DNA from: Lophium mytilinum
Lineage: Eukaryota > Ascomycota > Dothideomycetes > Mytilinidiales > Mytilinidiaceae
Assembly (NCBI GenBank): GCA_010093605.1
Contig: MU004186.1
Span: 2,244,983 to 2,308,982 of the forward strand
Direction of reading: 5' to 3'
Length of the DNA stretch: 64,000 nucleotides
In this document: positions 1 through 64,000 of the stretch, piece by piece
Position numbering within the stretch: position 1 is the stretch's first letter
Layout: the number at the start of each line of letters is the position of its first letter
Program-made: the position numbers and the translations under genes
Notes under the pieces: model-generated
Database searches by the model: none
What the model saw: only the letters and a program-made list of their open reading frames with translations
Told to the model about the DNA's origin: nothing

Positions 1-210
1 ATCAAGCTCCCAATTTACCCCATTCTTACCAATGCTGTAACTTCCAACGGCTGTGGACTTTCCTGGAGAGGGGACATAGTATGGGTTCGTCGGTTTACCG
101 AGCGAGTAGACTATTGAGCCGTCGTAGTTGGTCAAGAGAACTTTGAAGGGTGAGGCGATCCCAAATGCCCAAAGGAGGGCGAAAAGCACGACGAGTCTGG
201 CGGACGTCAT
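1..210 (-). CDS. Secreted protein, 5' part only (runs off left edge)
   Basis: On the minus strand an ATG at 210-208 opens a frame that stays open to the window edge (70 codons). The first residues form a clear signal peptide: a short basic start (MTSAR), a hydrophobic core (LVVLFALLWAFGIA), then a likely cleavage near Ala-Ser. The mature part begins with KVLLTNYDG and is rich in Ser, Tyr, Gly and Pro. A GTAAG at about 30-25 could be a donor, so the true exon may end there. I do not recognise the family. The signal peptide is seen; secretion is inferred. Confidence 0.55.
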   Translation of the reverse strand, partial: MTSARLVVLFALLWAFGIASPFKVLLTNYDGSIVYSLGKPTNPYYVPSPGKSTAVGSYSIGKNGVNWELD

Positions 211-1419
211 GGTCTTTGCGATACGGACGCCCTCGAGTGCCATGGCGCCAGCTTTGTATGTTGCAGGAGTGCTTGCCAACTATTCTCTCATCGCTTCGCC
301 AGTGCCGCTTATTACTAGCGAAGGTTGATAATATGATAGCGCTACACTCGGTGCCGTTAGAGGTGAAGGGAAACGCATTGATACACGAATCATCTTCCAT
401 GACAATGTTAGCTAGTAGAGGCGGATTTGGTGAAGACTCAGGACTTCTTGCCGGCATCTTGGCTCTTGGCTGTCCCGACGGAACGATAAGGTTCAGTAGA
501 GGTGCAAAGAGTGGGATACTCGGGTGCCGGCACACTGGAACTCTTCCGACAGCTTCAAGACCAAAGCTTGGCGAGATTCTATCTCTGAGAGGGGCCTGAG
601 AGCGAGGGGTATATGGTGTTGTGGTACCCGGATCTGAGAGGAGGTTCTTGGCACGCTAGGCATGAAAAAAGTGGCACACTAGAACTACAGCAGTTCAACA
701 CTGGCTGAGGTGGCCCAAAGAGCTATCAGGCTTGCCAGAGCTGATATTTTGTGAATAGCAACAGCATACTCGAGGGCCTCAAGCAGTGCTAAACAAGCGT
801 ATATAGAAAATGGAGAGAGAGCGTATATACCTTATAGATTTATACTGTAGACTGCCACTCTCTATTAATACTTAATTACCACGCTGCTTTCTTAGATGCA
901 TCTGTTTACCACTGCTTGAAGTGCCTCAACAAGTTTCCACAGACCCTAAAAGGAAGATGCTCTGTCCCATCTGAACTTCCGAAAATACGCTGAAGAACTC
1001 CAAGCAGTGGCACACACCTGTAGAATAGAGTGCCACCTTTTCATGCCCCACGTGCCTGGGTGGGATGTCGCCGAGCAAGTCAGTTCGTACAAAACAACAC
1101 TGTATTTACGGCACGTGATATCCGAAAACATCTCCGAAACATGATCTTCAAGATCTCTAAGGCCCTGGATGCGCCTGGTTTCACTCAATTGATCGAGAAG
1201 AGCAGTATGGCACGTGGTCATCACGAGGAATCGCGTCTATCTGGCGACACGCGACTTAGTGTGACGTAAGCTAGGGCATCCTAGTCTAGACTAGCGCGCT
1301 TTTCAATGCCCACCATGATTTAAGCTTCGTCCCGTTAGCACCCCTCGTCAACACACGTATAGACTCCTGTATGTTTCCTCGGTGTCTCACCGCGCTACCG
1401 CATTTTTCAGTTTGTCCCA
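211..1419. other. Intergenic, contains a MITE
   Basis: No convincing coding sequence. Overlapping open frames on both strands between 95 and 600 have no splice logic or recognisable content. The middle is taken up by the inverted-repeat element at about 647-1060, listed separately. Confidence 0.5.
647..1060. mobile_element. MITE copy 1 (long terminal inverted repeats, about 414 bp)
   Basis: The left end reads GGCATGAAAAAAGTGGCACA (660-679). The right end carries its inverse, GTGCCACCTTTTCATGCC, near 1030-1047, with outer GCACG/CGTGC blocks on both sides. Inside is a second inverted pair: CCACTGCTTGAAGTGC (about 910) against GAACTCCAAGCAGTGG (about 997). The same ends and inner pair occur again at 40.6 kb. 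No protein is encoded, so it is a non-autonomous element. The exact ends and the target duplication are not clear. Confidence 0.75.
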
Positions 1420-4400
1420 ATGTCGCCCCAATGCAGAGCTCTCGAGCTCTCGGACCCGACGGCAAAGACGCCATGCGATAAGCCGGCAACGTCGACCGAC
1501 GGGCGCCTTTGCAGCTTCCACGCTAGACAATGTCACGGTATGGGACCAGAGTCTCCCTAAGTATCTTCATCAGCTCGTTCTATGCTAATATCCCTGCTTC
1601 AAGCGTTGTACAAAGGATACAAGAGGAGAAATGCCCAGCTTGACAGCTTAACCAACTTGATGCCATCATATCTAGCTAGTACTAAGACCGCCCTTGTCAA
1701 CCAGAACTTCGAGGATGTCAGCGAGGAAAAGACACTAAGAGAGCTGCACGCCTACCTATTCAAGAGACAGAACATCCTCTCGTCCGTCATTCGTGGAAGA
1801 AAGCTGCATCACAGCCATTTTTTCGCTGTTGATATGGATTACGGCCACGAGAAGTATCTAGCCCAGCTGCAAAAGGAGAAGCATACGATTGCACGCGCTC
1901 TGGAGAGGCTTGGACGGAGAACTGCCGATATCCTTTACGCCCAGCGTTCTTGGTTTCCATGGGTTCGCCAATGTCAGGATGACGACGAGGCGCAGCGCGA
2001 AAATGAGAGCAAGAAAGTCAAATTAGAGGCTCAGTTGTTCAGGCGGCATCAAAAGGAGGTATTGCGACACCAGAAAGAGGTCATGGCGAAGGAGAACCAG
2101 AAGCGCGCAGAGGCATTCCTCAATGAAGTATACACGCAGAGACTTTCTGAAATGACCGAAGCGGAACAGGAGGAATGGGATCCAGTGCAGGATGTCGCCG
2201 AAGACGAGCGGGACAGCTACATCGATCTCATCAAGTATTTCTTGATGCTGAAGGATTCAGATTCAGAAACCTCTGATGCAACCAAATTCGAACGAGCAGG
2301 CAACGGCAACGGCGCCGGAAGTGCACCTCCGGATACGGATATTCCGAAAACGACGAACGGTGCGAAAAAGAAAGGGAAAAAGAGCAAAGCGGATCCCTCA
2401 AAGACCGACCCTGTGAAGACTAATCCTGCGATGGCGGAACCCGGAAATGGAAAAACCAACGGCACCAGCCCAGAGAAGGGCAGTGCTAGTAACATTGAAA
2501 TGGAAACCCAGGCCCAGATTAGAAGTCGCCTGAAAGAAGGCGTCAACTTCATTCGCGGAGGAGGCATGCATATTGCTGGCACTGTTGAGGCTCCGCTCAA
2601 ACTAATGAGGAAATCGGCTCCAATGCCCGACAACGAAATCGATGACCTTCTCCAGGACATTGCCCAGATTAAGACGCTGCTATTCTGTCGATTGCTGTTG
2701 TCCCACGCCAAACTTTTGCCAGTGGCGTTACGCGTTGAAAGCATTGAAGAATTCTTGAACGATGCAGAAGTTACGCTGGAGGATTTGCGAGATCTGTGCC
2801 TAAAAGTGGAGCAGCCCGGGCTACAAGAAGTCCGGGATGCGTGCGCTGATTTTGCGAGGGGAGACGAGGAAGAGGAAGATCAATTAGACGACAGTGGAGC
2901 AGAGGAAGAGGGAGACGAAACTGCAACTAATCATGGATATCGTCCCCGCAAAATGTCGAGAATCAATGGCCTGGATGTTGGCCATGTATACCAAACCAAA
3001 CGTGAAAAGGCGATGATCAAAAAGCGACAGGAAGCCCAAGAGATCTTAGAGATGGACGATCCCGCGACATCAATTGACTTCGGTGTCATCACCGATGAAG
3101 GCCAATTCAGTAAGAAGAAAATGCGCATCAGGATCTGTGGCCATTATATCCATAATTACCCGAGCGAGAAGGCCATGAATAGGGGAGGCTGGTTTCACTT
3201 CTGCGTCATCGCGAAAGACTCCAATCTGTAGGTGATTCTCATCAACCTGTCCACTCATGGACCACTGTACGGAGCGCTTCAATGAAGCTCCAAGCGTCAA
3301 TACCAGACGTCATGCTTGACACGGCCGGATTTGTGATAATTGTCGAATGCTGGCAGTCACGGTGATATCCTGACCTGGTGCATCGGAGGTTGAGCCGGCA
3401 ATCAAGAGTGATGGCCGGACACGGAGGTTAAGTAGTTGTGGGAAATTCGTGTGCATAACTTACTAATTTGATACTACATGATCATATTTGTCTTTAGCTA
3501 ACGTACTTTACCAGGTTTGACGCCATTACTCTGTGCCGACATTGGGATGAGTTCTTCGAGCTGAATGTCTTGGCTACATACCATTACTTCCCCGGCACCC
3601 ATTGGATGACATGGGTTGGCGATCGCTTGCGAAATCAATTAATGTCTCTGGTAGGTATTGTTCGAATGCCTTTAGAAATTGCAATATTAACGCTGCCACA
3701 GGGTTTTATCCCGTACGTCCAGAACGACGTCGCGGACGAATTCACAGGGTATTATCAATCGCCACGACGTCAAGGCAGACGATCGCATCATATCACAGAA
3801 ATGAGGTATGGGTTTCCTATTATATGACTTTCGCGGCACTGCTGATACCAGGAACAGAAACTTCATCTGCGGCCATGTCAAGCGTAACGATGCAGCAAGT
3901 CGCCGGCTCATTCAATACCTATCAATGGAGACATCAAAAGTCATTGTTCTTGTCCGTGACGCAAAGACCGGCCAAGTACTAGTCACGCCTCCAGATGATC
4001 AACTTTGGCTAGTTCGCCAGAAGACAGGGCTTGGGAGAGCTGCAAAGAACGACTACGACGTGCTCAAATCTGTTGGCACCGAATTCTTCGAAGCCATGGA
4101 TAGCTGTCGACGATGGCATTTTGGATTTACGGACTACTATGATATCTACCTCTGGGATGCTACAGCTGGCGAGACATTTCCTCGATTGTACAACAAACTT
4201 CGTCAAGTGAGCCGTATTTCTATGCAAGCCCTGCTCTCACTCAAACGCTCCGTTTCTAACTTGGGTAGATGCTGCTTAAAGCACAACGCTGCGTTCAACC
4301 TCTCGATTACTTCAATTTAGCCGGGCCAGTCATCAAGACTCTTACGAGGGACCGAGACACGATGAGAGCACGTACGATCAAGCCCGGTGAAGTCGTAGAA

Positions 4401-6580
4401 AGCATATGGGACGAGATCCATCATCCCGAAACACGCATGCGAGCCCTGGACATTAACAACCAAGAAGTGAAAATCGAGGACTCTCTGATGAGTTATCTCT
4501 ATAATGAAGCAGACGTTCTTGAGGACCAGATTCTATTCCCTGAAGAAGTTTTACAGAACAGGAAGAACGAACTATTTAAGGATAACCCAAACGAAATACA
4601 GAAGTTCGAGCGAGGGCCGCCTGGCGACCTTCGAAGATTTGTAAACGACATGGATACCGACGAGGAATTGTCCGATGATGAAGATCATCTCAAGATCACT
4701 GAGGGGGAACCTGTGCTACATGCCTCTCAGGGAGGAGAGCCAATCAACGACGACGACGCATGGACTGACACCAGCGACGAGTCAAGCATGGGCGAGGAGG
4801 AAGAAAAGGCTTTGATTGCTTTCGAATTCCAATTCAAGGAGTCTCTCGCCAATAAGGAGTCTCTCGCCAAGGATGAGAAGGAAGATCGTGTGCGAAATCT
4901 CGCGAAACCGCTATTGGACGCCACTATCCGCTGGCCATCCTCTGATACTAGCATGATCGACGCCGATATGATGGCCATAATGCGATTGAGTCTTACTAAG
5001 ACTGATAGAGACTATGCCGACACAAGCGACGAGAGTATGAGGAAAGAGTACCTTCGATTCATCGATCGCACAAAGTCTAAAAGTAAGTTTAATCCAGGTA
5101 CACTGCCTGGTCATATGCATGCGTACCCCTTTTTCGTCGTTGCCTGAAGTCCCTGGATACATCGCCCAAGACTTGGTCGAAGCTTATCTCAAACAATGAT
5201 CTCCTATTGGAAAAGCATTGTGCCGCACACACCCATTGATTTTCGAAAGTCTCTCGAGGCAATTCAAGCACTGGCAAACAAGTTTACACACAGTCACGAT
5301 TAACGACTGTTCTCTCCTCCGTAACCCATGGCTAATGGATTCGCAGTTTTCAAAGATTGTTGGCACAAGGCTGATCTGAGTCCTGGTGCAGCTGAGACTT
5401 ACGCAGAACTCCTAAAGGTTGTCAGAAAAGCGGACGATTACATAATGTCTAAGATCAACATGGGGCCTTATGAGATGCTGGCATTCATGGGAATGGCGTC
5501 CAAAATAACACAACATCGCCGCATCGTTCCCGACGCCTTCCTTGCGTACGCAGCAATCCACATGTTTTTTGAGACGACAGGTTTCCTTTCTTTCGCCTTG
5601 AAGGACTCTCAACTAGACCTCAGCGAATCGTTACTGCTGAACCAAGCCGAACGAGCAAAGCATCCGCCGAGCAGAAGAACATACAAGAGCAACAAGACGA
5701 TTGACAAGGGCTTTTTCAAAGTTTGGGACGATCTTTTGAGGGCCAATCGAAGAAAGCCCGGTCAGGATGTCGACGACATTTATCCTCTGGAATGGGATAT
5801 TGCCGTCAGGCCTATTGTGGCGCATCGTGAGTTGCATTCATCGCGTTTTCTCTCGTGCGTTCCTAACGGCTGACGTTGGTGAAACCGTAGTCTACAAAGC
5901 CGGTGTAATTGGCAATTCGTACGCTGAATTCGTCTACGGCAAGGCCGTACCCATCGCTGAGCCCTCTCGTCCAATGGATCTCTACATTGACTGGCGTCTC
6001 GAAATAGATAGGCTAGTATCCACTTTTATATCGTCGTCGGTTTCTGTATATTAGGAGATTTGCTATGCTAACGTCTTCAAGCTCTAGACCCATCATACCT
6101 AGCCACATCGAAGATCCCACCAAGCTTACAGCAGATACCCTCCTTGACAGTGCTCGCAAGTTCGCGACGTCTAACCCTGGTGCCCGATTCTCCATCCTGC
6201 GTTTGTGGTCAGCACCGCACTTCTACCCTCTCATGGTCGGCCCTGAACGTCGTGCGTCGACGAGTTTCTTGGACTCTGTGGGGCGAGCTTGGGAGTGGAA
6301 GTTTGTACCAAAGGATATGCCATGTTCAGAGTGGAGCATCCAGTACGCTGCACGGATGCGAATTGACCCATACAAGCGCCAACTCGGGGACCAGGTTGTT
6401 CTAAAGAGGGACTTGTACCTCGTTATGGGGAAGGATGCGGATGATTGTAAGTTGCGAAGTGCTGGAGTGACGTGGGCAGTGCAGACGGAGCCCTGGCGAC
6501 TGGAAGTGGATTTCTGGAGGAGCTTTGTTGGGGTCGATCTGGAGTTCTTGGAGGGCCTTGACAAGGAGTGGTTGGATTAG
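1420..6580 (+). CDS. Very large uncharacterised fungal protein, frame broken mid-gene
   Basis: Proposed exons: 1420-1537, 1604-3227, 3515-3650, 3702-3805, 3852-4206, 4269-5082, about 5150-5826, 5891-6011 and 6088-6580 (about 1,480 codons). All junctions up to 5082 keep phase. The N-terminus (MSPQCRALELS...) leads into a basic helical region with long coiled-coil stretches. An acidic linker follows, then a conserved-looking core (GGWFHFCVIAKDSNLFDA, HYFPGTHWMTWVGDRL). The C-terminal half is globular. It resembles a conserved Dothideomycete protein of unknown function; I assign no role. Two oddities: between 5150 and 5378 the protein-like frame has a TGA (5197-5199) and then shifts frame before ADLSPGAAETYAELL. 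The intron at 6012-6087 fits best with a GC donor. It may be a pseudogene, or the assembly may carry an indel. Confidence 0.7.
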
Positions 6581-6826
6581 GAGGCTCGGTCACGTGACGT
6601 TGACTTCTGTCTGCCATTAGCTGGAGACGGCATCAAACTGTGAGGTCTCGAATTTAGCGTGTATAGTAGCGGCCTTGGTGACAATAATAAGGGTTCAGAT
6701 ACCATAAAACCCTTTCAATGACGACATCGGAGATGTGACGATTGTTGAGCACGAGATTGAGCATGGGAATACATGTCTTAACAAGCACAGATAATGCATA
6801 TACACCGGCTGAACGCGTCCTTCGAT

Positions 6827-7685
6827 TCATGAATTTGACGAAAATTGAGAGCAGATAGTTGAAGCCTCGACTTGTCTCGTTCGGTATCTACCTAGACCTG
6901 TCTGTGACTGCGTCCCAATCCAATCTACCAACCCCGTGTATAGCCCAGGGACTATGAGATCGCAGGTCCCCGCGCACGCTGCACCGCTAGCGGCTGGGAA
7001 CCAGCAGACGCCTTTCAGTACGGGCAGGATGGCATCAAGGCTTAGAACACACGCCTCGCACACCGTCAGCTCCTCGACCAACCGTGTGGTCTGCGGATCA
7101 AAGAGGGAGTACCAAACCCGCGTCTCCGTCGGCGTCTCCCCCGCCACCGTGACCTCATCGTTCGGACACGGCCCGCTCCGGGGGCTCTGCAGCTCAGCTA
7201 CAACGCCTAAAAGAGACGCGTCTGGAGCAGATTGTGAGACAAGCCAGGCGTATGCGATCTTGATCCAGTTGTTGTTGAAGTCGCAGGCGGTGGGTCGGTT
7301 GGCGGGTATGGGCGGAGAGACAGCGAAGAAGCGGGCGTAGGGGTGCGGGAGGATGGAGGTGGTGTAGCAGGTTGGGCAGACGACGAATTCGGGGTAGGAT
7401 TTTAACGAAAACCAATCAACATAGTCGTGGGAGAAATTTGGTCGTGGACATTCAGCCTATTGCACCGCACCTGGAGAGATGGAGCCAGGAGGAGGGGCGG
7501 CTGGGGGTTTGACAAGAGGCATAATTGAAAGGTTCTCTTTCTATTTGGCTAAGCGAGGAGAGAAGAGATAGAGAGAAGACCTGAGAGAGAGAACGAACCT
7601 TTGGGAGAATCGCGGCGTGATGAAGGCTGCGAGGCTGAAGGACCTCAGCTGAGGCGTTTATTGGGTCTAGACCTATGTTGGGCAA
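6827..7685 (-). CDS. Cysteine-containing protein of a Dothideomycete family, function unknown
   Basis: Two exons, 7685-7599 and 7456-6827, separated by a 142-bp intron, give 238 residues. The start MPNIGLDPINASAEVLQ is followed across the junction by KAECPRPNFSHDYVDWFSL. That segment, with the next CPTCY pair, resembles a set of fungal proteins often named only 'integral membrane protein' in databases. More Cys pairs follow (VCEACV and CAGTCDL), which suggests zinc or disulphide binding. I see no strong transmembrane segment. It is convergent with the large gene to its left (246 bp between stops). The exon model is good; the function is unknown. Confidence 0.65.
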
Positions 7686-7912
7686 GTATGGGGCTGGTAT
7701 GTCAGCTTCGCAACTTCAGGCAACACGGATGATAACGCTCTAAACAGATCTATTCATTCCAGATTCTTGAAATTGTATTGTGGAGCTGTTTTTTGTGGCA
7801 ACTTGGGTTATCGGAGGAAGTAGATATTCTATTCTTACGCTTTGGCAAAATTAACGCCAACAAACGGATATCTGAGCTTCTTCACCGTCAATTCCCCTTA
7901 TGCCTTGGTTTC

Positions 7913-9574
7913 TCAACCTATATGAACCCTGATTCTCTGGGTGACCTTCTTCCGACACATTGGGCATTTTGCTCCCGTCTCTGGGATGTTCCGGTGCTTA
8001 ATGGGCATTTGAATGTCTGCACACCACTCGCACATAACAAGATGCCCACAAGGCACACATGCGATATCTGCGACTTGTTGATAGCAGATTTGGCACTCCA
8101 GCTTGACCATCTTCTCGGCGTCAGTCTTCGGTTCCGGTCTGCTGTCGTTATCCAAGTGCTTAGTAGGTAGGTGCAGTGAAGCTAGAAGATCTCGAGCCTC
8201 TTCTCCCCGGCTGTCCGGGCTGACCATTGCACGGAGGCGATGCTCAAAATCATCCAATAAAGACTCCGTTGCGCTTGTCGTACGCGGTATACCCTCCCTT
8301 CGGGCTTGTTGCCCCACTTGAAACGGCTCTTCCATGCGCACCTGCAGCTGCTCGAGGTGTCGGCGTTGTACGTCGCTCAGTTGCTCCAGTTGTCGTTCTT
8401 CGGTGCGCAAGTGCTGCAGCTGCTCGCGGTGTCGTCGTTGTGCGTTGCGCAGTTGCTCCAGTGTCTCCAGTTGTCGTTCTTCGGCGCGAAGCTGCCGCAA
8501 ATGCGGGTGCTCTTGCGGCATCGAGGTTGCCTCATTGCCAGAGGGACGTGAGCCTACAGTGATTTGTTCAGGCGCGCGGGATGCTACAGGCTCCACGTCC
8601 GGAGGCGATGTATGCCGCCGCGCAAGATCAACTGGCGTCAGGCTCAAAGCACTGGAATGCGGTGAAGCTGGCGAATTTGACAAACCAGCAAAAAAGTCTC
8701 GTTCTCCTTCAATTCGACGCTGTTCAGCTTCGGCACGATTCATCTCAATTCGGCGTCGATTCCACTCTGCGTGGCGAATAAAGAGGCCTGTGATTGGACT
8801 CATATAGTCGTCGCTTTCAATGTCTTCGCGAGTACCCCAGACTCTCCTCGTGCGCTCGGCTGTCCACTCGGCCCTGCGTTCGCGCAACTGCTGAATTTCG
8901 AGTGATCGTTGTGGTTGAGCAGACGGTATATCAACGTCGTCTTCGTCCTCGAGAAGGTCGTCGAGTTCTTCTTCAATCGTGCGGTGAGGTTCTGCGGTGC
9001 TGGCAGCTTCAGCAGGCGTCGTTGCTCTCGTCGTCCTGTTGAGTGCTCTTGTTGCGTCGTTTTGTTGTCCTGTTCGGAGTTCGTTCACTGTGAGTGGCAA
9101 GTATCCTGGAGAGACGTCCCGGAATGGCTCGCCAACAACTGCTATGCGAGATTCGGTCCCGTCTGCGGCCTTGACGATCCGATAGCCCTGGTGAAACTCG
9201 TTCCAGCGCTCAAGGAATTCGGTTTGATCTGGGAGTTCTGGAATTCGTGTCCGAGAAAGTGGGAGAGGAGGATCTGCTGAAGCGATGCGGTTGTTCCAGA
9301 ATTCTACTCAAACACGTCAGCGACATGCATTCCATGGTTCAGGAAAAGACTGTGAGTGGGATTATCCACCTTTACAGAACCAACAATAGCTCTGCCATCG
9401 TGTGCCCCGCTGGACGAACCCAACACCGTCTATGTATACCGAGTACGAGCTCGAGTGGGCGCGTTCGTCGGCACAGGCGCAGCAATTAGGTGTGGATGTC
9501 AGTCGGCAGGAAGTGGCCAGTTTATGGGGACAGTGTTCCTCCAGTCGAGGAACATCGCCCGTGAGGGTTCCCAT
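7913..9574 (-). CDS. RING-finger protein (probable E3 ubiquitin ligase)
   Basis: Two exons, 9574-9370 and 9303-7913, with a 66-bp intron, give 531 residues. The N-terminal 70 residues are Cys/His-rich (EHCPHKL, CCACADERAH, YCWFCK) and may bind zinc. The middle is long and charged, with Arg/Glu/Gln helical repeats (residues about 150-420, coiled-coil-like, RLE-QL-type heptads). The C-terminus (about 472-521) is a C3HC4 RING: CQIC, then CGHLVMCEWC, then CPMC. A C-terminal RING after a coiled coil is typical of IAP/MULAN-like E3 ligases, which transfer ubiquitin from an E2; the substrate cannot be told. The frame is open upstream of residue TTG at 9100, so the intron and upstream exon are needed for an ATG start. 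It is divergent from the Nudix gene. Confidence 0.8.
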
Positions 9575-9979
9575 GGTGTTGAATGATGATCTGTGAAAAG
9601 TTCAACGGGTTCGGATGACGGGCTGTAGATGCAGAGCTTGTAAGAAGCAAGAGGTCCTCTATTCACCACGGTTCGATCAGTCGCAAGTCATGTCTTGCAA
9701 GAAGCATGCGCATCGATAAAAGGGTAGTGTTTTCCAAAGAGAGCCCCAAGACTGCACTGATCGCTTTGCTTCCTCTTCATGAATTGACTGCTAGTGTTGT
9801 TGGGAGATGCGGCGAAGAGGGGTGTAGTTGACGATGGCACGATAGTTCTAGCTCGGCGGAGATGAGGCCACTAACTCCACAGCCTCCAGACGTCATGCAG
9901 GTGCACTTTCACACCCACAGCTCCACTGCATCAGCCCCATGGCAGGCATCCATACCCTCTTCAGCACTACAACTTCTCG
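9575..9979. promoter_or_regulatory. Shared divergent promoter region
   Basis: These 405 bp separate the start codons of the RING-finger gene (minus) and the Nudix gene (plus). The stretch must hold both promoters and 5' leaders. I see no distinctive site or repeat. An ATG at 9862 opens a plus frame, but that frame does not continue into the Nudix domain. Confidence 0.45.
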
Positions 9980-10992
9980 ATGCTTCCTCGACTGCGGCTG
10001 ACTCTCGCACATCTCTCAAGACGACCCTCAAACTCCGCTATACTCGCAACAATCACCAGAACAGCTTCTGCCAAAATGTCAACCTTCACCCTGCCCAACA
10101 CGACTCCGCCAATTCCAGTGTCGCTGCCTTCGAACCTACCACAAGACGCTCTAATTTCATTCCCGGCTTTCAAAAATTGGCTAGCCACGCTGCAACATTC
10201 CCTGTCCCTCCAGAGCAACAAGTCACACACCTTCCACGCGAATCCCTACGCCCTCAAGAATATCGAGGTTCAGGCTGTCGATTGGTTTGGGAAGAAGCCG
10301 GGCTTTATCAAGCTGCAGGCAAAGGTAGAGAATGACAATGGCGAGAGTCTGCCTGGGGCTGTGTTCTTGAGGGGAGGTAGTGTAGCTATGCTGGTACGTT
10401 GCGCCTTGTGGCGCTCTACATCGATATCTATCCTTCACTATGGTTATGCGTCTCGTGCTAACCTTGTAAACTCCGTCCGTAGCTCATTCTCCAACCCGAC
10501 GATGTCCCCGCCGACACGGAGAAAGATAAACACGTCCTCCTGACCGTTCAGCCCCGCATCGCAGCCGGATCTCTCGAACTCATCGAACTACCAGCAGGCA
10601 TGCTAGATGACGGCACTTTCTCTGGAACTGCCGCCAAGGAAATACAAGAGGAGACAGGGTTGGAGGTCCCAGAGTCTGAACTCGTCAACATGACGGAGCT
10701 GGCATTGGCGTCAGGAGCAAGCTCCAACGATGTCGAGAAGCTGCAGACCGCCATGTACCCTTCCCCAGGCGCATGCGACGAATTCATTGCACTCTTCCTG
10801 CACCAAAAGCGCATTCCGCGTTCCCAACTTGACGAGTTCCGTGGCAAGCTGACGGGCCTACGCGACGAAGGCGAGAAGATAACTCTGAAGCTGGTGAGGC
10901 TAGAAGACCTGTGGCGTGAGAGTGGGCGGGACGCGAAAGCCCTGGCGGCTTGGGCGATGTACCAGGGACTACGGGGGGAAGGCAAGATTTAG
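9980..10992 (+). CDS. Nudix hydrolase, ADP-sugar pyrophosphatase type (NUDT14-like)
   Basis: Exons 9980-10393 and 10483-10992 (intron 89 bp, branch GCTAAC) give 307 residues. The Nudix box lies at about 177-199: GMLDDGTFSGTAAKEIQEETGLE contains the EExG core, with the usual Arg replaced by Lys (KEIQEETG). The LPAGMLDD lead-in is typical of the NUDT14/ADP-sugar diphosphatase branch, which hydrolyses ADP-ribose or ADP-glucose to AMP and a sugar phosphate. The first 32 residues are basic, hydroxylated and lack acids, like a mitochondrial presequence. A second ATG at 10075 would give a shorter, cytosolic form of 275 residues. Which start is used is open. Confidence 0.85.
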
Positions 10993-47370: not shown

Positions 47371-48689
47371 CGTAGGGTCGGTCCTTTGAGGATGCGGGAG
47401 TCGTCCCGAATCTGCAGGCTCGTCTCGAATCTGCAGGCTCGTCTCGGAGGACGTAGTATGCCATGAGTGAGTGCTCTCTCGGTCCGATTTGGAGAACATT
47501 GTGTAGAGGTGATCTAGAAGCTCATGCTAACGCTTCCAGAACTCGCACGATCTTCTCGCAAATTCGTCGGTTGGAAAGTCAGTGGAAGCAAAGATCCGCC
47601 ATATCGTCTATAAGAGCCGGGCTTATTCCCACGCCTCGGTATCTGTTTCTTCGGCGGCCTGGCTGCTATCGGATTGGGAAATCCTCTCCTGGTCCTTCTT
47701 GTCTCTTGCCCCTTTTTCGGGGGGCTGCCTTTCTCGCGCCGGGCGAGTTTTTCGTCTCACTCCCTGCCGCTTGGCCTTCTGGTGTTCGGAGGTCTTCTCG
47801 TCGATCCCCCATTCCCCTACGTCTCTTGAGCGATAGCCTCTTTCTCCGTTTCCGGCCCTTCGTAGTGAGGCCCGGTGAGAAAGGTTCAAATGTGTTGGGG
47901 TGGATGTGCGGCAGTGTGAGCCTTTCCTGTCTCGGCCTTTATGTCCTTCGTCCTTCCTCACTTTTAGTCTTTGAGTGAGCCCGAGATTACTCTCATTGGA
48001 AGACTTGCTGGATGGGACGAATGCTATGGTCCAATTCCTCTGGTCCGATCTGGTGGTATGAGCATCACTGGCCGGAGGTGATCTTCCTCCATAGCATGGC
48101 GATGTGCGTTTCGAGTTGAATGAGAGCGAGGGCTACAAGCTGCCTGCACGCCCTGCTGTGTTTGATGGAATCTTCGGAGCTGAAATCAGCGTCCCTTATG
48201 AACATGAACTATTAGATCTGCCTTGCCCTTGGGGTCATAAGCTCCTTTGTGGGCGCTGCCTACCATGACTGTGATCACTGTGAGGGATTGGACGTTGCTC
48301 TCGGCGATTCGACATTGTGAATGATGCGTCGTTGAACGCCCTCGCGACGGTCTCACGGTTTCTAGATCTCTTGTTTGCTAGCGGTTGGGTAGAGAGATAG
48401 GTACGCGTAGTGCGTTCTCTGACAAGTCTGGCTAACGTATCGAAGACACTCTCTTTTGTAATCCCGCGAACCCTCATCTTGTCAAATCAAACCAACACAG
48501 CCTGGAGAGTACCCACTGATGGCCTATTGCCGCCTCCGAGCCGAAGACCCAGGCGAACAACAATCTCTTCCAAGTCGGATTGGAAAGAGCTCCCAGTTAC
48601 GGCCTCCGATCCGAACATCTAGGGTGCCTCCAATCAACCCTAGAAGACTCTCCTGATTGCGAAGACAGGATTTCCAGCCCAGGGAAATC

Positions 48690-49335
48690 ACAGCCTCCAG
48701 GCGGAACATCCAGGCTGTGTCCTGCCATAGAGCAGCTTCTCTGAACATCCAGGTTGCCTCCTGCCATGGGGCTACTTCGCCGAACATCCAGGTTGCCTCC
48801 TGCCATAGGGCTACTTCTCTGAACACCCAGGTTGCCTCCTGCCACGGGGCTACTTCTATGAAAACCCAGGTTGCCTCTTGTGATGGAGCAGCTTCTCTGA
48901 ACACCCAGGTTGCCTCTTGTGATGGAGCAGCTTCTCTGAATATCCAGGTTACCTCCTGCCATGGAGTGGCTTCGTCGAACTTACGCACTCCCTTCTGCTA
49001 TAGAGCGGCTTCGTTGAATATCCAGGTTGCCCCCTATCAATTCTAGAGGGTCCTCTAAGTCACACTAAGAGAGTGCCGCGATTTTGCAGGGTGGCCTCGA
49101 ACTTGGCAATGGTCTGTCTTGCAATCCCGGCCTTCCGAACCTTTCGCCTACACAATACATGTACGCGCGCGTGATGCGGTATTCATTGCGGGGAGTGCCC
49201 ACTGTTGAATTGTGGGATTTCATGACCTCCGAGCGGGACATTCAGGTTACCTCCTGCCATGGGGTTGCTTTGCCGGACATCCAGGTTACCTCCTGCCATG
49301 GAGTTGCGTTGCCGAATATGCAGGTGGCGTTCTAG
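48690..49335. repeat. 39-bp minisatellite, about nine copies plus a second cluster
   Basis: The unit contains CATCCAGGTTGCCTCCTGCC, then ATGGGGCTACTTCTCTGAA, 39 bp in all. About nine copies run from 48690 to 49040. After a unique spacer there are two to three more copies at about 49220-49335. Because 39 is a multiple of three, the array is open in more than one frame. The plus strand reads a 13-residue repeat (NIQVASCHGATSL). The minus strand reads another (EVAPWQEATWMFR). No start context, signal or domain supports either as a real protein. Confidence 0.85.
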
Positions 49336-54250: not shown

Positions 54251-57200
54251 AACTACGTTGCTAACACCCTATCCACAGTCCCCGCGCCAACGACCTTGTA
54301 TGATTCCGCAGCCCTATCTTAGTCACCGCATCGGACTACTGTTATCCTTGCCTCTATCGACGACAGAAACGCTTGGAGCTACGCTATTTTTCGATATAGA
54401 TTCGGAGTCATGCGGATGAGGCAGCCGGTACCGGGACTGCCGGTGGATTGGCTATTTCTGGCTACCGTTCTATCTCCTGAAGATATAGGATCGCCTCTTC
54501 GGTTGATGTCTTCGCACTATCGATAGCGAGAGCGCATCTTCTCTGGCACTATCGGATCGAGGCCGGTGCAGGGAATGTCTGTGGAGTTGGACACAGTAAG
54601 GAAATGTTGTCGATGTCTGGCTTCGTCGTACTCGAGAGGAGTGGTAGTCTGGTCCTCGCAGGTTCCAGTCTTTGTAGTTTATACACAATGACAGGCTATA
54701 GGTTTCAGCACACTGTATCGACACTGCTGGGGTTTTCCCTTTAGGATTTGGGATGTCCAATGGTGATGTCGAGGGTCAAGCGGTGCATACTGGACTACCT
54801 CTTGACCAATTTGCTGCTCAGAAGCCAGGGAACCCCCGACAGTGGTGTCGAGTGGGCAAGTTGGAGCCAAGCCGTGATGAGTCCATGTGCCCAATCTTAT
54901 AGCTTAGTATTGTAAGTACATGTTCAACCCAATGCTCGAGCCCTCTTTCCACGCCACGGTCGTGAAGTGGATTATACATTTTTAAGGAGACTTAGAGGCG
55001 CACGTATTTGGCAAAGGAAACCGCGCAGCGCGCGCAAATTGATCCAGAACACCAGTGGGCGAGCGCTGAAGAAGCCGTAGTCTGGACGCTGCGTAAGTCA
55101 TCCACGAGGCGTAGGTTCATCGTCTTGTCATGTGCATCTGAGTGGAGCCTTTCAAGTCTTCCAACGTACTAGACCCACCCCTACGTAAGGCTCCCATCGC
55201 TTCTCCCTCCCCCTATAGAGAGATTGAGCGCCTTCTACCCATCCGGGCCAGATTGTGCACGGCAGCTGCAGTTGAGTTCGACCCGATCAAGCACCATTGC
55301 GCGGAGCTTTTCATGCTGTTGAGCTTCAATCTCCAAAAGATGACATCTCTCCACACGCTCTCGTCTTCTCGATGCGCTTTGTCTTCGCAGGGACTTTCTT
55401 TCTGTCCTTTTCCAAAGCAAGCGGCTCGATCCTCCCTGTATACTCCTCGGACTCGGGGGCGAGGGGATTTGTTTTCTCTTCCAGAATCGTGTAGCGCCCA
55501 TCCCTGGTATTTCTGTCTATCGGAAACAAGAGGCGCCTACATGAAGCCTCCAACGTACATCTTCGTTCAGATCGTCCCGCGTGCACCTTTGACTGCGCTC
55601 ACTAAGTTAGTATACGGGCTCGGGTCCTTGCTGTTGATCACGGCTACATACTACTCGTTAGAGGGGTTTGCTTCCTTCATAGTGTCCACTAAGTTCAGGG
55701 CAGGGTACTTAGATGCAACACGGGATTACAGTTACCCGAACGACAGTGATACGCCTCCAGGGACGTTAGCGATGGGGCCTGTAGCCCTGAGAGTACAGAG
55801 GCTTAGCGCGAGGATACTGAGAGGCGGGTAAGCACCCAAAGGCATCGCGGATAGATTCGTGTTAGCACTGGAGCATGGAAACTCAGCGCACGATACTGGG
55901 AGGCGATATAGTGCCTGTCACTCTCGCTCGGATCCTCGGATTGCTCGGCGTGGTGAGTGTGAGAGGAGAGCAGCTGCTTGGTGCCGTCGCTGACGGGCTC
56001 TCGTGTAAAATTTCTGGCTACCTGGATTGCAGCAACCGCTTAGCCCCAGCGTGGTTGGGATGTGAGACAAGAATGAGGGAAATGATCGAGTATAGCTCCT
56101 CGAAGCTCTTAGCTTACATCTCGGGCATCTTGATCACCACATCATACTCAGGCTTGGTGAGCCCGAGCCCAATTCCTTGCGAGGTGCTTTCATTAGGCCG
56201 GAGAACGGCGATGGAAGAAGGCGAATCATCTGTAGAGATCACGGTGATGCGGCTCTTCCATCAAGGTGGAACTTGGTTCAATCTCAGTATCCGGCAAAAA
56301 CTATAGTCGCGTCGGCAGAGAGGAAATACAGGTACTCTCGAAAGTACATGGGAAGACCGACAGTATCTGCCAGACCTCTATTCTCGAGGTTGAGCATTCC
56401 AAGTGTCTTTTGCTCATCACGGGCGATCTTCTCATACCGCTTCCTGCCGCCTGCGCCTTTGCCCCACTCGAATTCGGCACCTGTGTTGATATAAAAGCCT
56501 GGAGAAGCCTGGAAGTCATAAGAGAGTATACCAAGCCGCTGTTGGTTGAGTCTGATGCATGCAGGGCGAATGGCCAGGAAACGTGGGGTCTTCTCTTCTT
56601 GAAGGTAGAAAGGAAAGCATGGCGAGTCAGACGGCGGTGATAGTATAGGAGTAAGGTAGTGAGGCTATCCGAGTACTAATGTACCTCAAACCGATATCCC
56701 AGACCATTTCTTCCAGCGCAGAGATTCAACCGACCGTACCGTCTGCCCAAACGCGCCGTCTCCGCCTTGGAGGGCCTTCCTTGTAACTGGAGGTTCGCCT
56801 TGCCGCTCTTTTGAATTTTAAACGGTCTACCTTTGTAGGTTAGAGAAGCAACCTTACAAAGGTACGACGGGCATGTGTCTTTCGCTAGTTGGTGATGGAT
56901 TGCATCGCCTGGTAGGCTCCGATTGAAGTTCTCGTCAATGCTGCTATGTCCCAAGACCTCAACGACGTCCGTCTAGTACTCGCCCCCCCTTCTGGTCCAA
57001 TGATTCCTCTCCGTATTGGTAAAGGACGGTTATCATCAGCACGGTGTAGCGATGTCGCCAGGCCTAGAAGTCGCGGAACTAACAGACTCGCCCCAAATAA
57101 AATCAGAAACTACGACGCGATCTTGCATCCCTCAAGGAACATATATCCGCTGCTTTCTGAGTTTTTCCAGAGCGGCCTTGAATGTCGCGTCCGAGAACGA

Positions 57201-58136: not shown

Positions 58137-58645
58137 TGTTGGAAGTGGCGGTAAGATGACGAGGTATTGACGACTTTTAAGACTGCTAAGAAAGAGCTGA
58201 GCTTGAGATAAGAAATTCTAAAGGGCCTCGAGCTTATGTATCCAAAGGTCGATGAACAAATATCGGATCAGATGAAGTGAGGGCTTCGACCAGAACTCGA
58301 GCAGTAAACGGGACAAACCTGTCAGCTACGGGACATTGTCCAAGAGTTCGAAGAGGAAATGAAGACGGACCAGGCGGATACTCGAGGTCAATGCGAGGCT
58401 TCAAGCAAGCAGCTGCAGCTAAAACAGTTGCATCCACAGCCCATCCGTCATTCCGGTTCCTAACCAGCTGCCGCTCGAGCTGCCGTTCGAGCTGCGGTAC
58501 GAGCTCCTGACTCTATTGGGCGGCGTGGAGGTCACGCTGATGGATGTAATATTTGGAGCTCCCATACGACGAAATACACCATAGGAGCCTTGCAGAAGAC
58601 GCAACTGTCACGAGTATCAGTACACGGGACGTTGCATATGCAGAA

Positions 58646-58769
58646 TGTTGATTGTATTAACTATCTAGGAGAGGCTGGAAGGGAGAGTACACAGCGTTAG
58701 CTAGTGTACGGCTCCTTCTAGCCGTCATTAGGGGGCTCCTTTACTAAGCAGGCCGTAGCCTCCCTAACA
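58646..58769 (-). repeat. Retrotransposon LTR (124 bp), 3' LTR of the minus-strand gypsy element
   Basis: The stretch begins TGTTGATTG and ends CCTAACA, i.e. it is bounded by the TGTT..AACA inverted ends usual for LTRs. On the minus strand the bases just before it (58770-58781) read as a G run followed by CAAT, a plausible polypurine tract. So this is the 3' LTR of an element running right to left. The other LTR would lie beyond the telomere junction and is absent. Confidence 0.6.
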
Positions 58770-61700
58770 ATTGCCCCCCCCATAATAAGTAGGCGTCCTC
58801 GCCTATGCATCCTAAAGAGAGAGAGAAAAAGAAAAAGGGGGCATTAAGAAGTACTATACATACTCTTAGGGGAAAGGGTGCTATTTAAGGGTATATTTTT
58901 TTATTTAGTTAGAGTATTAATAGTGCAGGGGGTGTAGTAGCGTAGTGCTAGTATAGTGGCGTAGTACTAGTATAGGGGGTAGTTATATACTATTACTATT
59001 AAGAGATAAACTATATAAAGTCGCCGTAGCTAGTATAGAGAGGGTGCAAATTAAACTATAATTACCTAAAGGTAATTAAGTAGTAATTCTTTACTTCTTA
59101 GTACTATCTATAGGCTTAATTCTTATAATATAAATGCTTCTACTTAGGCTCTATAGATGGGTTCTCCTTAGCTAGATCCTGCAGCGCGTGCTTGTATTAG
59201 CTTAATCTTATAGAAGGGATCTCTACTTAGGGTTCGCGCATTTATAGGTTCTCTTAAGTACTAGATATAACGGGTTGTTCCGGTAGCGGCGTTTCTAGAG
59301 TATTCTAGTATAGTAAGTTTTAGTTATATACCTAGTTATACTACAAGTTAGGCTTAGTAATAAGCTATTTCTCTTAGTTATGCACCTAGTTATACTGTAA
59401 GTTAGGCTTAGTAATAAGTTATTTCTCTTAAGAGGAGAGTATATTATACTCTTAGAGAGGGTGCTCTAGCTACTATAGGGAGTATTCCGGGTTAATTTTT
59501 AGTTACTAGACTTCCGGCAGTTACTTTAGTAGAGCATCTATAGAAGGTAGAGTCTTATCTTATAGTAATAGTTTTCTCTCTAGTAGAAGGCGGCTATTAC
59601 TACTAAGGCCTAGGTAGCGGTTTATAAAAGCTGTAATAGATAGGGGAGCTAAGGTAGGCTACTTACTATTACGCAGGTTTAGTTAGTTCTATAGTAAGCT
59701 AATAAGGGTAGTTGCTATAAATAGGGAGCTTAGTATTTATAACGCAGTAGGTATACCGCGCATAAGGCCGGTAGCTTAAGGCTAGAGTTATTCTATAGGT
59801 AAGGTATTAGTACTTACTATAAAAGGCGAGCTTAGTATTTATAGCGTAGTAGGTACTATATACCTAACTTAAGTAGGTAATATTACCTATAGGTTGCCTT
59901 CTACCCGCTCTACAGTATTTATATTTTTAAAGTTTAGAAGCGGCGCTAGCATATCCTCTAGTAGCGGGTAACGCGGAGTACTAGAAGTGCCCGCTACATA
60001 TTATATACGCTTTGCGTACGCATTATTTATAGCTTTATTAGTATTATTAAAGTTCTAGAAGTCTATATTTAGGGGGACTATTCTATTAAGAACTATATTA
60101 TAAGCGCCGGGATTAGTAGCTGCTCTAATAATAGCTCTAATAAGCTTATTCTTACCCTTTATTTAGTAGTCTAACAGCGCGTTTATAAGCGCTTCTTAGC
60201 TTAGTATAACTTCTATTAGCTAGTTTATAAGATTTCTTGCGCGCTCGGCTTAGTTGCAGTATAACTCTAATATTTCTAAAGTATAGTTATTAGAGGTGTA
60301 AATTACACGCGCTATAGTCTCTAAAACTTAGCGTTTACTATATATAGCCTGCATAGTTTCCTCTATACTAGCTCTAAGTGCTTACAGCGCGCGGCTTCTA
60401 AGTATATCTAGCTTAGTTTTAAGCGCTTTATTATCCCCCTATAGCTTAAGAAGCTATTTATATTAGAATATTACCTATGCTTATATATTAGCTATATTTC
60501 TAAAGAATACAAAGTTCTTAGCTTATAGAGTTTTATACTTAGCTTATAGCTCCGCGAGCTTCTTATTAACTCTATTATAACTATAGCTAATATTCTACTT
60601 CTTAACTACTATAGCCCTTAGTATTATATATAAGACGGAGATCTTATATTTATATTTATCTTTCTTCTTAATAAACTTGCTTCTAATTATTATTAGTTAC
60701 AAGTTAGGGTATAGATTTGCAGTTATTATATTATAGAAATCTTGCTAGAATAAGTTATATTCTAGGGTGTACTAGTTATTCTTATAAATTTAGAGCGTAT
60801 AGTTATTATATACTTTATCTTTATATAGTACTAATATGCGGCGTATAGGCTCTATATAGACTTAGTTATCTAGTTATAAAGGTAAAGAAAGAGAAGGTAG
60901 TTTCTATAAGGTCTACTCTAGGTTAATAATATATCTATATTATAGTACTACTAGCTAAGAGATTATAAATTTATCCTTATATACTCGCGGTTGCGGGCCT
61001 TTATTTATGGGGGGTTAATATCTTAGCTATTAGTTACCTAGCTACTATTAGAGCTATACCTCTATAAGTATTTACTCTAGTTATAGTTCTAATAACTATT
61101 CCTAGCGGTTCTATATTTCCTGCTAGAGTACTTATTATTAGCCCTGTAGAAGGGCGCTATATAACGCAGGCAAGCTGCCTTTAAAAGATATAAATAACGC
61201 ATAGGGCTTAAAATTAGCGTTATTATTATTAAGGTTAATAATAAATCTACTAGTTAGAGCTATTCCGCAATCGGCTTCTAGGTGTTCTAGCGTAAGCGCT
61301 AGAACCGCCGTCCGGGGATTAAGGCCTGTTCGCGGTATAAAGTACAGCCTAAGCCCTAGAAGCTATACAGGTTTCGTAGTAATTATTAGAGGGCCTATTA
61401 CTAGCTACTTATCTAATTATATTTGCTAGGCGTAGGTAAGAGATAACTAATTTAGTGTATAGAATTACTTAGGGTCTAGAGAGAGACTATAGGTAGGGGT
61501 TATATTAGCTATAATATATAACTTAGCTATAGACGCGCTTACTATAATTTACCTATTATAGGTAGCTACCTTAGAAATCTAATTTATAAGGCGGCGTTTA
61601 GCTCCCTTATAGCCTATAGTAATATAGTTATAGTAAAATAGCGTATACTACTATATACTCTTCTTATTCTAGACTAAGTATACGGCGCCTATAGAGACCC

Positions 61701-63905
61701 GGCTAAGATAGAAGCGTAGGGCCTTAGTAAAGTTAGAGAGCTAATTCTTCTATAGAGTTTTAGCCTTAATTTCTTCTACTTTAAAGAGTAGTAATATCTT
61801 ACCCGTAATATAGTTAAATAAGCGCGTAAACCGCGGGGGGAGGTTATTCTTTATTAGCTCTATTATAAAATTATAGAGGGTAAAGTTATACTACTTAGGC
61901 AGCGTATACGCGTTCCCTTAGTTTATAGTCTTTACTGCTAGCGGAATAACTATCTCTAGGTCGCCTAGGGCCTATAGTTTTAGTGGCTTGCAAACTAAGA
62001 GTACTGCTATATTTTAGGTGGCGCGTTCTGCTAGTATAGTACGGGGGGTAAAGGTGTCTTTACTAGTATTACGTTCCTCTAAAGGTATAGTAAAAAAGGT
62101 ATAGAGAATATAGGTAAGTTTTTTATAAGAGGTTGTTATTAAATATCTTTTTTTAAGTAACGTTATATACTTAAAAAAGTTAAACGCTAATTTACTAATA
62201 AACCTAGAGTAGTTCGCGCTAGCTACATTCTTCTAGAATAATAAGAAACGCTAAATACTAGAAAAGAAAAAACGCTAACGCCTTATGCGGCGCTCGCGAC
62301 GCCGCTTATAGTTTATAACTATAAATAGTACGTCCTCTATTATATACTCTATAGGTTCTTCTATTTTCTTCTTATATTCTTTCTATCTAACTATATACTT
62401 CTTACCCTGCGGGGTATACTTTTACCGTATAATTTTTTCTACTATCTATTTCTCTTCCCTATTAATAAGTAGAGGTAGTGGCGGTGCTATACCTCTTATA
62501 AAAGGATCTAGTATAGCTTATTTAAGGTGCGTAACGCTTATTACTAGGTATATCTTACTATATATCTTTAGTAGGTATAGCTTATACGCTAGATTATTAA
62601 TTCTTCTTTTTATCTTAAATAGTTCTACTTTTACTATAGATAGGGCTATACTACTAGGTAGCTTAAAGCCGGGCTTTATACTACGCACTACCTTTAGGTA
62701 TACTAATCCTTCTAGGTTTAGAATAGTCCTCTTTCTATTATAGTGCACGGCTATTCTTACCTGCGCTAGCTTAATAGCGTCTATAATATCTTTATATATA
62801 GCGTCCCTATTTACTAGAAAGTCTAGTATATTCTTACTACTCTTTCTCTAGAAGGTCTTAGGCGGGACTCTATATAGTACTTTAAATAGCGTATACCCTA
62901 TAGACTTATATATAGCCGTATTTAGGCTATACTCTACTATTAAAAGTAGGTTCTACTATTCTATCTTATACTTACCTATAAGGAGGCACCTTAAGGTTAT
63001 TTCCACCATTTAATTTATACGTTCGGCTTGCCCGTTAGCTAATAGATAGTAGAATGTTATTATATACAGGTTAATACTGCATCTCCTAAATACCTCCTGC
63101 TAGAAATTACTAGTAAACTTTAGGTTCTAGTTACTAATAATTAATTCTAGTAGGCCCTATATGCCGTATAGCCTATTAAATAGATAGGCTGCCTAGACTT
63201 CTATAGAGTTAGTATTAAGGCTAGGTATAAGTAGTACAGCTTTTAAGAATTTATCTATTACTATTATTAGTATATTAAAGCCTTGCAGCGATACTAGAAG
63301 TACTACTATAAAATTAATCGCTACTATAGTAAAAGGTTTATCTAGGGAGCGCACTAGTTTTAGCTTACTATATAGTTTCTTTCTACTATGCTTTAATAAT
63401 TAGTACTTTAGACAGGCAAGAACATACTTATCTACTCTTTTCTTTAGCCTTAGAATATATACTTTACTATAGAGCTTTTAATAGGTTTATATTAATTCTA
63501 TATACCCGCTTATATTATAGGCTACTTAGATTGCGTTATCTACTATTATTATTAGAAGGCACACTCTATAGAACTCGCTATTATTAAAGTATAGTAAGCC
63601 CCTATTAAACTTAAAGCTATAGTAGGTAGCTGTCTTATCTAGTAATACCCTTACTTTATTCTTAATATACTAGAGGATTATACTAAATATAGGGTCTTAT
63701 AGAAGGTTCTCTTATATTCTAGATTTATACTTATTCTTAACTATTATAGTAATTATAGCCTAGTAATATATAGATTCTTCTCTATTCTTATTCTACTCTA
63801 TATCTTCTTCTGCTAGTAGGCGTAAAAGGCCATCTATATTATTATAGTATTTGCCCAGTTTATATATAATAGTTATGTCTTTAAGGTATATTATAAGGTA
63901 CATTT
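58770..63905 (-). mobile_element. RIP-mutated Ty3/gypsy retrotransposon, truncated by the telomere
   Basis: The whole stretch is very AT-rich, full of TA, with CpA and TpG almost missing: the pattern of repeat-induced point mutation. On the minus strand, decayed pol pieces occur in Ty3/gypsy order. The RNase H end is at about 63880-63800 (IIYKLGKYYNNIDGLLRL). The integrase core end is at about 63052-63001 (LANGQAERIN, then a TAA where Gln is expected). A GPY-type C-terminal module lies at 62748-62518 (KLPSSIALSIVKV and VISVTHLK). Gag, protease and most of the reverse transcriptase are missing because the telomere begins at 63906. From about 62400 to 58770 I recognise no domain. The element is dead. 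Confidence 0.8.
62518..62748 (-). pseudogene. Integrase C-terminal (GPY-type) remnant of the gypsy element
   Basis: This is the longest frame left in the AT-rich block, 76 codons. It has the GPY/F-type layout of Ty3/gypsy integrases: LVYLKVV, then GFKLP, then FKIKRRINNLAYKLYL, then VISVTHLK (the IHPVISVAHL-like end). Many Leu, Ile and Lys codons fit C-to-T and G-to-A change. No start codon belongs to it; it is a piece of a polyprotein. Confidence 0.7.
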
Positions 63906-64000
63906 TTAGGGTTAGGGTTAGGGTTAGGGTTAGGGTTAGGGTTAGGGTTAGGGTTAGGGTTAGGGTTAGGGTTAGGGTTAGGGTTAGGGTTAGGGTTAGG
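63906..64000 (+). repeat. Telomere, (TTAGGG)n
   Basis: Sixteen near-perfect TTAGGG units (95 bp) run to the window end, in the orientation expected at the right end of a chromosome (G-rich strand 5' to 3' towards the end). TTAGGG is the usual telomere unit of filamentous ascomycetes. The repeat starts abruptly after retroelement sequence, with no subtelomeric helicase gene in between. Confidence 0.98.

Follow-up and report, generated by a model that had tools for sequence, protein, structure and literature searches.

How does a chromosome come to end in telomere repeats that begin directly inside a retrotransposon? The question is raised by the right end (C6R) of contig C6 of the ascomycete Lophium mytilinum (GCA_010093605.1, contig MU004186.1, positions 2244983-2308982; genome of 43,183,309 bases in 24 contigs), where the terminal 64,000 nucleotides were analysed as a single stretch, here termed the window, whose first letter is position 1. 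The window ends in a telomere array that is joined, with nothing in between, to a decayed long terminal repeat (LTR) retrotransposon of the Ty3/gypsy type that carries RIP-like mutation (repeat-induced point mutation, RIP) and has lost its 5′ half. Relative to a full-length relative in the same genome the element is truncated exactly at the telomere, and the telomere probably came to begin in mid-element through loss of the chromosome end followed by de novo telomere addition.

The junction and the element beside it

The telomere array (63906-64000, plus strand) consists of 15 complete TTAGGG units and 5 further bases up to the contig end, all matching at 100%, and its start is where the original prediction had put it; exact two-unit TTAGGG matches number 14 in the window versus a mean of 0.01 in shuffles. 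The element/telomere junction (63903-63908, plus strand) has its boundary at 63905/63906, where the T at 63906 fits both sides and gives an overlap of 1 nucleotide (nt), the bases reading ACATTTT/TAGGG in the window versus ATATTTT/CTACTTC in the relatives on contigs C11 and C18 that are described below.

On the inner side of this boundary, the stretch 58606-63905 is best read, from its minus strand, as the 3′ half of one Ty3/gypsy element and not of two, because it resembles the C18 copy both in the stretch that separates pol from the 3′ LTR and in the tract beside that LTR. Nearest the telomere lies a decayed pol remnant (62299-63903, minus strand), in which the last RNase H residues (63903 to ~63820) appear to be followed by integrase and an SH3/Tf2-1-like C-terminal part; the frame that leads leftward from 63903 passes from the end of RNase H into integrase with 21 stops in 534 codons (piece 62301-63903). 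That an RNase H would end on the minus strand just before the repeats had been predicted, and the motif IIYKLGKYYNNIDGLL is indeed present there, at 63870-63823, about 10 bp from where it had been placed. The order of RNase H and integrase in the window fits by position. Since the Pfam scores in the window are weak and all below the curated cut-offs (Integrase_H2C2, E=0.024 to 0.063; SH3_Tf2-1, E=0.00097 to 0.0023), it is the relatives on which the Ty3/gypsy assignment firmly rests. The translation of 62990-63905 in another frame, not the one that holds the motif, gave 0 Pfam families. The stretch at ~62400-62320 looks chromodomain-like by eye, and a chromodomain, as in the chromovirus branch, is unsupported there by any Pfam Chromo match.

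Further inward, on the way from pol to the 3′ LTR, comes a decayed region (60028-61947, minus strand), possibly a further reading frame, in which two stretches are similar at the protein level to the corresponding part of the C18 copy, namely 61450-61947 (38% over 169 amino acids, E=1.6e-12) and 60028-60813 (33% over 281 amino acids, E=3e-11), both with hand-converted coordinates. The region also matches pieces of the C11 copy at the protein level (E=1e-14 and 7.5e-5), and a Pfam search of the frame pieces 60000-62103 and 61203-62103 returned no family. The whole interval between pol and the 3′ LTR (58783-62298) spans ~3.5 kb, is of similar size in the C18 copy with partial conservation at the protein level, and may contain an additional reading frame belonging to this Ty3/gypsy family.

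An intact 3′ LTR of 164 bp (58606-58769, minus strand) forms the inner edge of the element; it starts with TGTTAGG, ends with CGTGACA, and lies against DNA of normal guanine plus cytosine (G+C) content (GC-normal) of the same contig. Its TG..CA ends stand beside a polypurine tract (TGGGGGGGGCAAT, 58770-58782, minus strand, recognised from its sequence) that adjoins the LTR, and the inner LTR edge falls at the same place as in the 3′ LTR of the C18 copy, tract and edge together giving a 27-bp match to C18 at 88.9%. The five bases outside the LTR edge (GCAAC, 58601-58605) are presumed, by analogy with the target duplication of the C18 copy, to be the sole surviving copy of a 5-bp duplication whose partner was lost.

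The base composition changes at the same edge. In 2-kb bins, G+C is 48-58% as far as 58 kb and drops to 32-33% in the two outermost bins. From 58.5 kb outward TpA/ApT is 1.6-2.8, and (CpA+TpG)/(ApC+GpT) is 0.1-0.4 apart from a value of 0.75 in the 500-bp bin containing the edge; the corresponding values for the three bins at 57.0-58.5 kb are 0.66-0.72 and 1.0-1.35, respectively. Judged by these dinucleotides, the outer part carries the signature expected of RIP, and is here termed RIP-like.

Relatives inside other contigs

What the element looked like before its truncation can be gauged from its relatives. The terminal block was searched against the whole genome, in which masked stretches read N, with only the best candidates being scored, and 12 matches were listed, the block itself included. 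Two of them are long (C11:793800-795478 and C18:826839-828453) at 72% identity, and both lie inside contigs and not at ends; at the DNA level (~72%) they cover window positions 62233-63905 and 62300-63905, respectively. The other listed matches are six shorter parts of pol (64-72%) and three short pieces of 50-99 bp (79-86%) near the 3′ end of the element, and one additional 62-bp match to the block was found in a contig start. This search, and that for a full-length relative with both LTRs, had been proposed with the original prediction as checks; the first found no match at another telomere-bearing end, and the second led to the C18 copy.

The C18 copy is full length (821616-832119, 10,504 bp) and has two LTRs, of which the 3′ LTR measures 161 bp and which match each other at 92.2% over 154 bp, with an AAAGG target duplication on both sides. 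It is 93% identical to the C11 copy across 4.7 kb. Both relatives align with the window as far as 63905, immediately before the telomere, and extend past this point through RNase H, reverse transcriptase (RT) and the 5′ parts of the element, the sequence beyond the junction point in C18 amounting to 5,223 bp that the window copy lacks. The continuation in C11 matches RT_RNaseH_2 (E=1.8e-16), RT_RNaseH (E=4.3e-13) and the structure of the Ty3 reverse transcriptase (4ol8, E=8.1e-23), with RVT_1 below its cut-off (E=0.0025); one C11 integrase piece, translated in a different frame from RT, gave 0 Pfam families. The protease and gag of the relatives were placed by eye from frames and position, the protease piece being without a Pfam match. 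The original prediction counted the 5′ LTR, gag, protease and most of RT as lost, which needs one correction, as all of RT and most of RNase H are missing.

Other telomere-bearing ends of the genome

The starts of all 24 contigs were surveyed, together with the right ends of C6, C3, C8, C13, C15, C18 and C21, all seven of which bear telomeres, a telomere-bearing end being a run of ten perfect units, plus C8R (contig side given as L or R) with its interrupted repeats. The comparison covers the 12 ends so found (C3R, C5L, C6R, C8R, C9L, C10L, C11L, C13R, C15R, C17L, C18R and C21R); contig ends that lack a telomere or stop in N runs lie outside it. Five of the 12 (C3R, C5L, C9L, C11L and C21R) have one subtelomeric repeat and one telomere boundary in common, with small differences, and four (C8R, C10L, C15R and C18R) are GC-normal and have a short terminal motif in common. 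The remaining three, C6R, C13R and C17L, are cut inside longer repeats.

At C13R the telomere begins ~0.5-0.7 kb inside the shared subtelomeric repeat (junction at 1885 of C13:1793903-1795902), where 4/4 compared homologues run on, and an irregular TTTTAGGG stands near the telomere base. At C17L (junction at 95/96 of C17:1-10000) it begins inside a 5.2-kb unit that occurs near many contig ends, with at least 37 matches, and all five compared homologues continue through the 1 kb fetched, where they are 89-95% alike. The C17L junction offers a 3-nt TTA seed, a fit that 6 of the 64 triplets would give, and the overlaps are 1 nt at C6R, 1-2 nt at C13R and 3 nt at C17L. From their sequences, C13R and C17L would best fit as a second and a third truncated and recapped end.

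Over the 500 bp that precede the telomere, RIP marks are present at each of the three cut ends (TpA/ApT 1.59-2.52; (CpA+TpG)/(ApC+GpT) 0.32-0.53; G+C of 27% at C6R, 47% at C13R and 35% at C17L). The five ends with the shared repeat are marked too ((CpA+TpG)/(ApC+GpT) of 0.15-0.37 in the last 500 bp), and the four GC-normal ends are unmarked by this ratio (0.78-1.30) and mixed in TpA/ApT (0.68-2.00). If ends were repeatedly trimmed and recapped preferentially inside RIP-marked repeats, as three cut ends out of 12 with every junction marked might be taken to mean, such DNA would form a buffer zone where a break can heal and no gene is lost. This generalisation is improbable: a truncation can be recognised only inside a repeat, and with 3/3 cut ends marked versus 5/9 of the others, and thus 8/12 ends marked overall, no preference of truncated ends for RIP-marked DNA is shown.

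The terminal perfect run has the same number of complete units, 15 (90 bp), and 2-5 extra bases at 10 of the 12 ends (C5L, C6R, C9L, C10L, C11L, C13R, C15R, C17L, C18R and C21R), and irregular telomere repeats occur at C3R, C8R, C11L and C13R. N runs of 2 to at least 10 kb open 12 of 20 contig starts (C2, C4, C6, C7, C8, C12, C14, C15, C16, C18, C19 and C20), and at C2, C12, C15 and C18 the N run gives way precisely at the point where a 5.2-kb subtelomeric unit copy picks up again, which suggests gaps or masked stretches at repeat-rich ends. Directly beside the telomeres of C8R (L036:1708-1916) and C15R (C15:1734107-1734315) there is a conserved 209-bp sequence, 94% alike and with these two as the sole matches listed; a related shorter motif occurs at the telomeres of C10L and C18R, the common end before the repeats being GAGGAAAA. 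The short conserved sequence beside the four GC-normal telomeres gave no RNA gene at Rfam gathering scores, and the shared subtelomeric repeat (C5L, 92-10000) gave no Pfam family, and so no telomere-linked helicase, in four of the six frames (three forward, one reverse).

The shared subtelomeric repeat was not found at C6R, where the listed matches of the terminal block are the dispersed element family and short pieces. For the 10.6 kb on the inner side of that block 45 matches were listed, from the best 39 of 155 candidates scored, and they come down to a dispersed short motif plus some weak pieces at C6:49-58 kb. In the same part of the window, a 230-bp stretch (54685-54914) has similar copies (72-83%) at no fewer than 37 dispersed places in the genome and is possibly a short mobile element or a motif shared by genes. 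A 39-bp tandem repeat lies at 48704-49035 and 49236-49325, part of it inside a minus-strand open reading frame (48524-48988), where it reads as a protein repeat.

Origin of the truncated end

Loss of the chromosome end followed by direct telomere addition is the best reading of C6R, because the relatives continue past the junction and two other ends are joined to telomeres in mid-repeat; the same evidence supports the original prediction of breakage inside the element, or erosion of the end, with a new telomere, for which we continue to rely on inference. A Ty3/gypsy LTR retrotransposon would have inserted near the right end of the chromosome with its 5′ end toward the telomere, and a RIP-like process would have mutated it, whether this preceded the loss or followed it. 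The chromosome would have lost all DNA outward of a point within RNase H, either in a single break or through gradual erosion once the telomere had failed (the two cannot be told apart here), and with it the 5′ LTR, gag, protease, RT, most of RNase H and whatever lay beyond. The bare end would then have received a new telomere directly, probably from telomerase with a T as its starting base. This one process, terminal loss with direct telomere addition, fits C6R, C13R and C17L best alike.

Some points weigh against this reading. The sequence of the window copy before the break is known only through relatives that differ from it by 28-30%. The 1-nt overlap at C6R is uninformative alone, as any end except C would offer one and chance often gives it. 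The recorded telomere length is probably technical, a property of the assembly, given the uniform 15 units, which leaves the junction itself untouched. Finally, that junction is known from the assembly sequence, and the suspiciously uniform arrays at 10/12 ends and the N runs at 12/20 contig starts would also fit an assembly chimera in which a telomere-bearing read or contig was misjoined to the middle of an internal element copy. A chimera is unlikely, however, since a 1-nt overlap is too short for an overlap-based misjoin, the irregular repeats at four ends look sequenced and not appended, and the left flank of the element is GC-normal sequence of the same contig.

An uncapped end might instead have been repaired by capture, either by copying an internal stretch that included part of the element or by joining the telomere repeats of another chromosome, and in Magnaporthe one study ascribes some telomere-adjacent sequences to copying from internal loci when failed telomeres were repaired (PMC8381367). 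Capture seems distinctly improbable at C6R. Copying predicts a near-identical second copy of the terminal block, and there is none among the matches listed, the best being 72% and confined to the pol part, while the intact 3′ LTR as inner edge is as expected of an insertion in place; capture by joining the bare telomere repeats of another end is not touched by these points. A search for interstitial telomere arrays of at least four units as a source for recombination found none with A, C or G as the next base, arrays before T or N being invisible to it; one internal telomere 24-mer lies at C3:155768, and 4 of 64 reverse 24-mer matches were not placed.

Truncation at the 5′ end on entry is typical of non-LTR and not of LTR elements. 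That the element entered already 5′-truncated, through aborted integration or because it targets telomere repeats, and lost nothing later is very improbable, notwithstanding the direct junction and the telomere-targeted retroelements described in fungi (MoTeRs, PMC7367193; FoTeRs, PMC12857005), as such truncation is uncharacteristic of LTR elements, the two long relatives lie inside contigs (C11:793800 and C18:826839) and the inner (3′) edge has no telomere repeats; on the last two points a telomere-targeted retrotransposon of the MoTeR/FoTeR type is rejected.

With end loss and recapping preferred, C6R reads as a clear fossil of that process, and together with C13R and C17L suggests that it recurs in this genome. 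The element itself compares well with other Ty3/gypsy elements in its probable RT-RNase H-integrase order across relatives and window, its LTRs, its polypurine tract and the 5-bp duplication of the C18 copy, and is unlike them in having pol and 3′ LTR set apart by ~3.5 kb of decayed sequence. A further comparison, with Neurospora crassa, involves Pogo, which is a DNA transposon. There, a relic of Pogo directly adjoins the Tel VR repeats, and the AT-rich subtelomeres have RIP hallmarks, so that a RIP-type transposon relic abuts TTAGGG repeats in both fungi, whereas the relic at C6R is Ty3/gypsy and repeats are common to many ends in L. mytilinum, unlike the N. crassa subtelomeres described, which have no repeat class in common (PMC2596135).

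In Magnaporthe (Pyricularia) oryzae, simple terminal truncations with de novo telomere formation have been sequenced (PMC7367193), and nested terminal truncations and captured internal sequences have been described (PMC8381367). As at C6R, telomeres there start inside a repeat or retrotransposon of which longer copies exist in other places, at several ends per genome (PMC7367193; PMC8381367). The short overlaps at the three ends here may be seeds of the telomere-like kind used there, 19 of 24 de novo telomeres on truncated ribosomal DNA (rDNA) having used 1-4 nt and one truncated MoTeR2 having been healed from a single in-frame T (PMC7367193). Unlike the one static assembly considered here, many of the M. 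oryzae events were caught in clonal progeny or crosses (PMC7367193; PMC8381367), and they concern telomere-specific non-LTR retrotransposons or rDNA, in contrast to a dispersed LTR element with RIP-like decay. C6R, for which no claim of being unreported is made, leaves existing knowledge of fungal telomere healing unchanged and represents a known and fairly ordinary kind of end change, to whose precedents it adds a dispersed LTR element.
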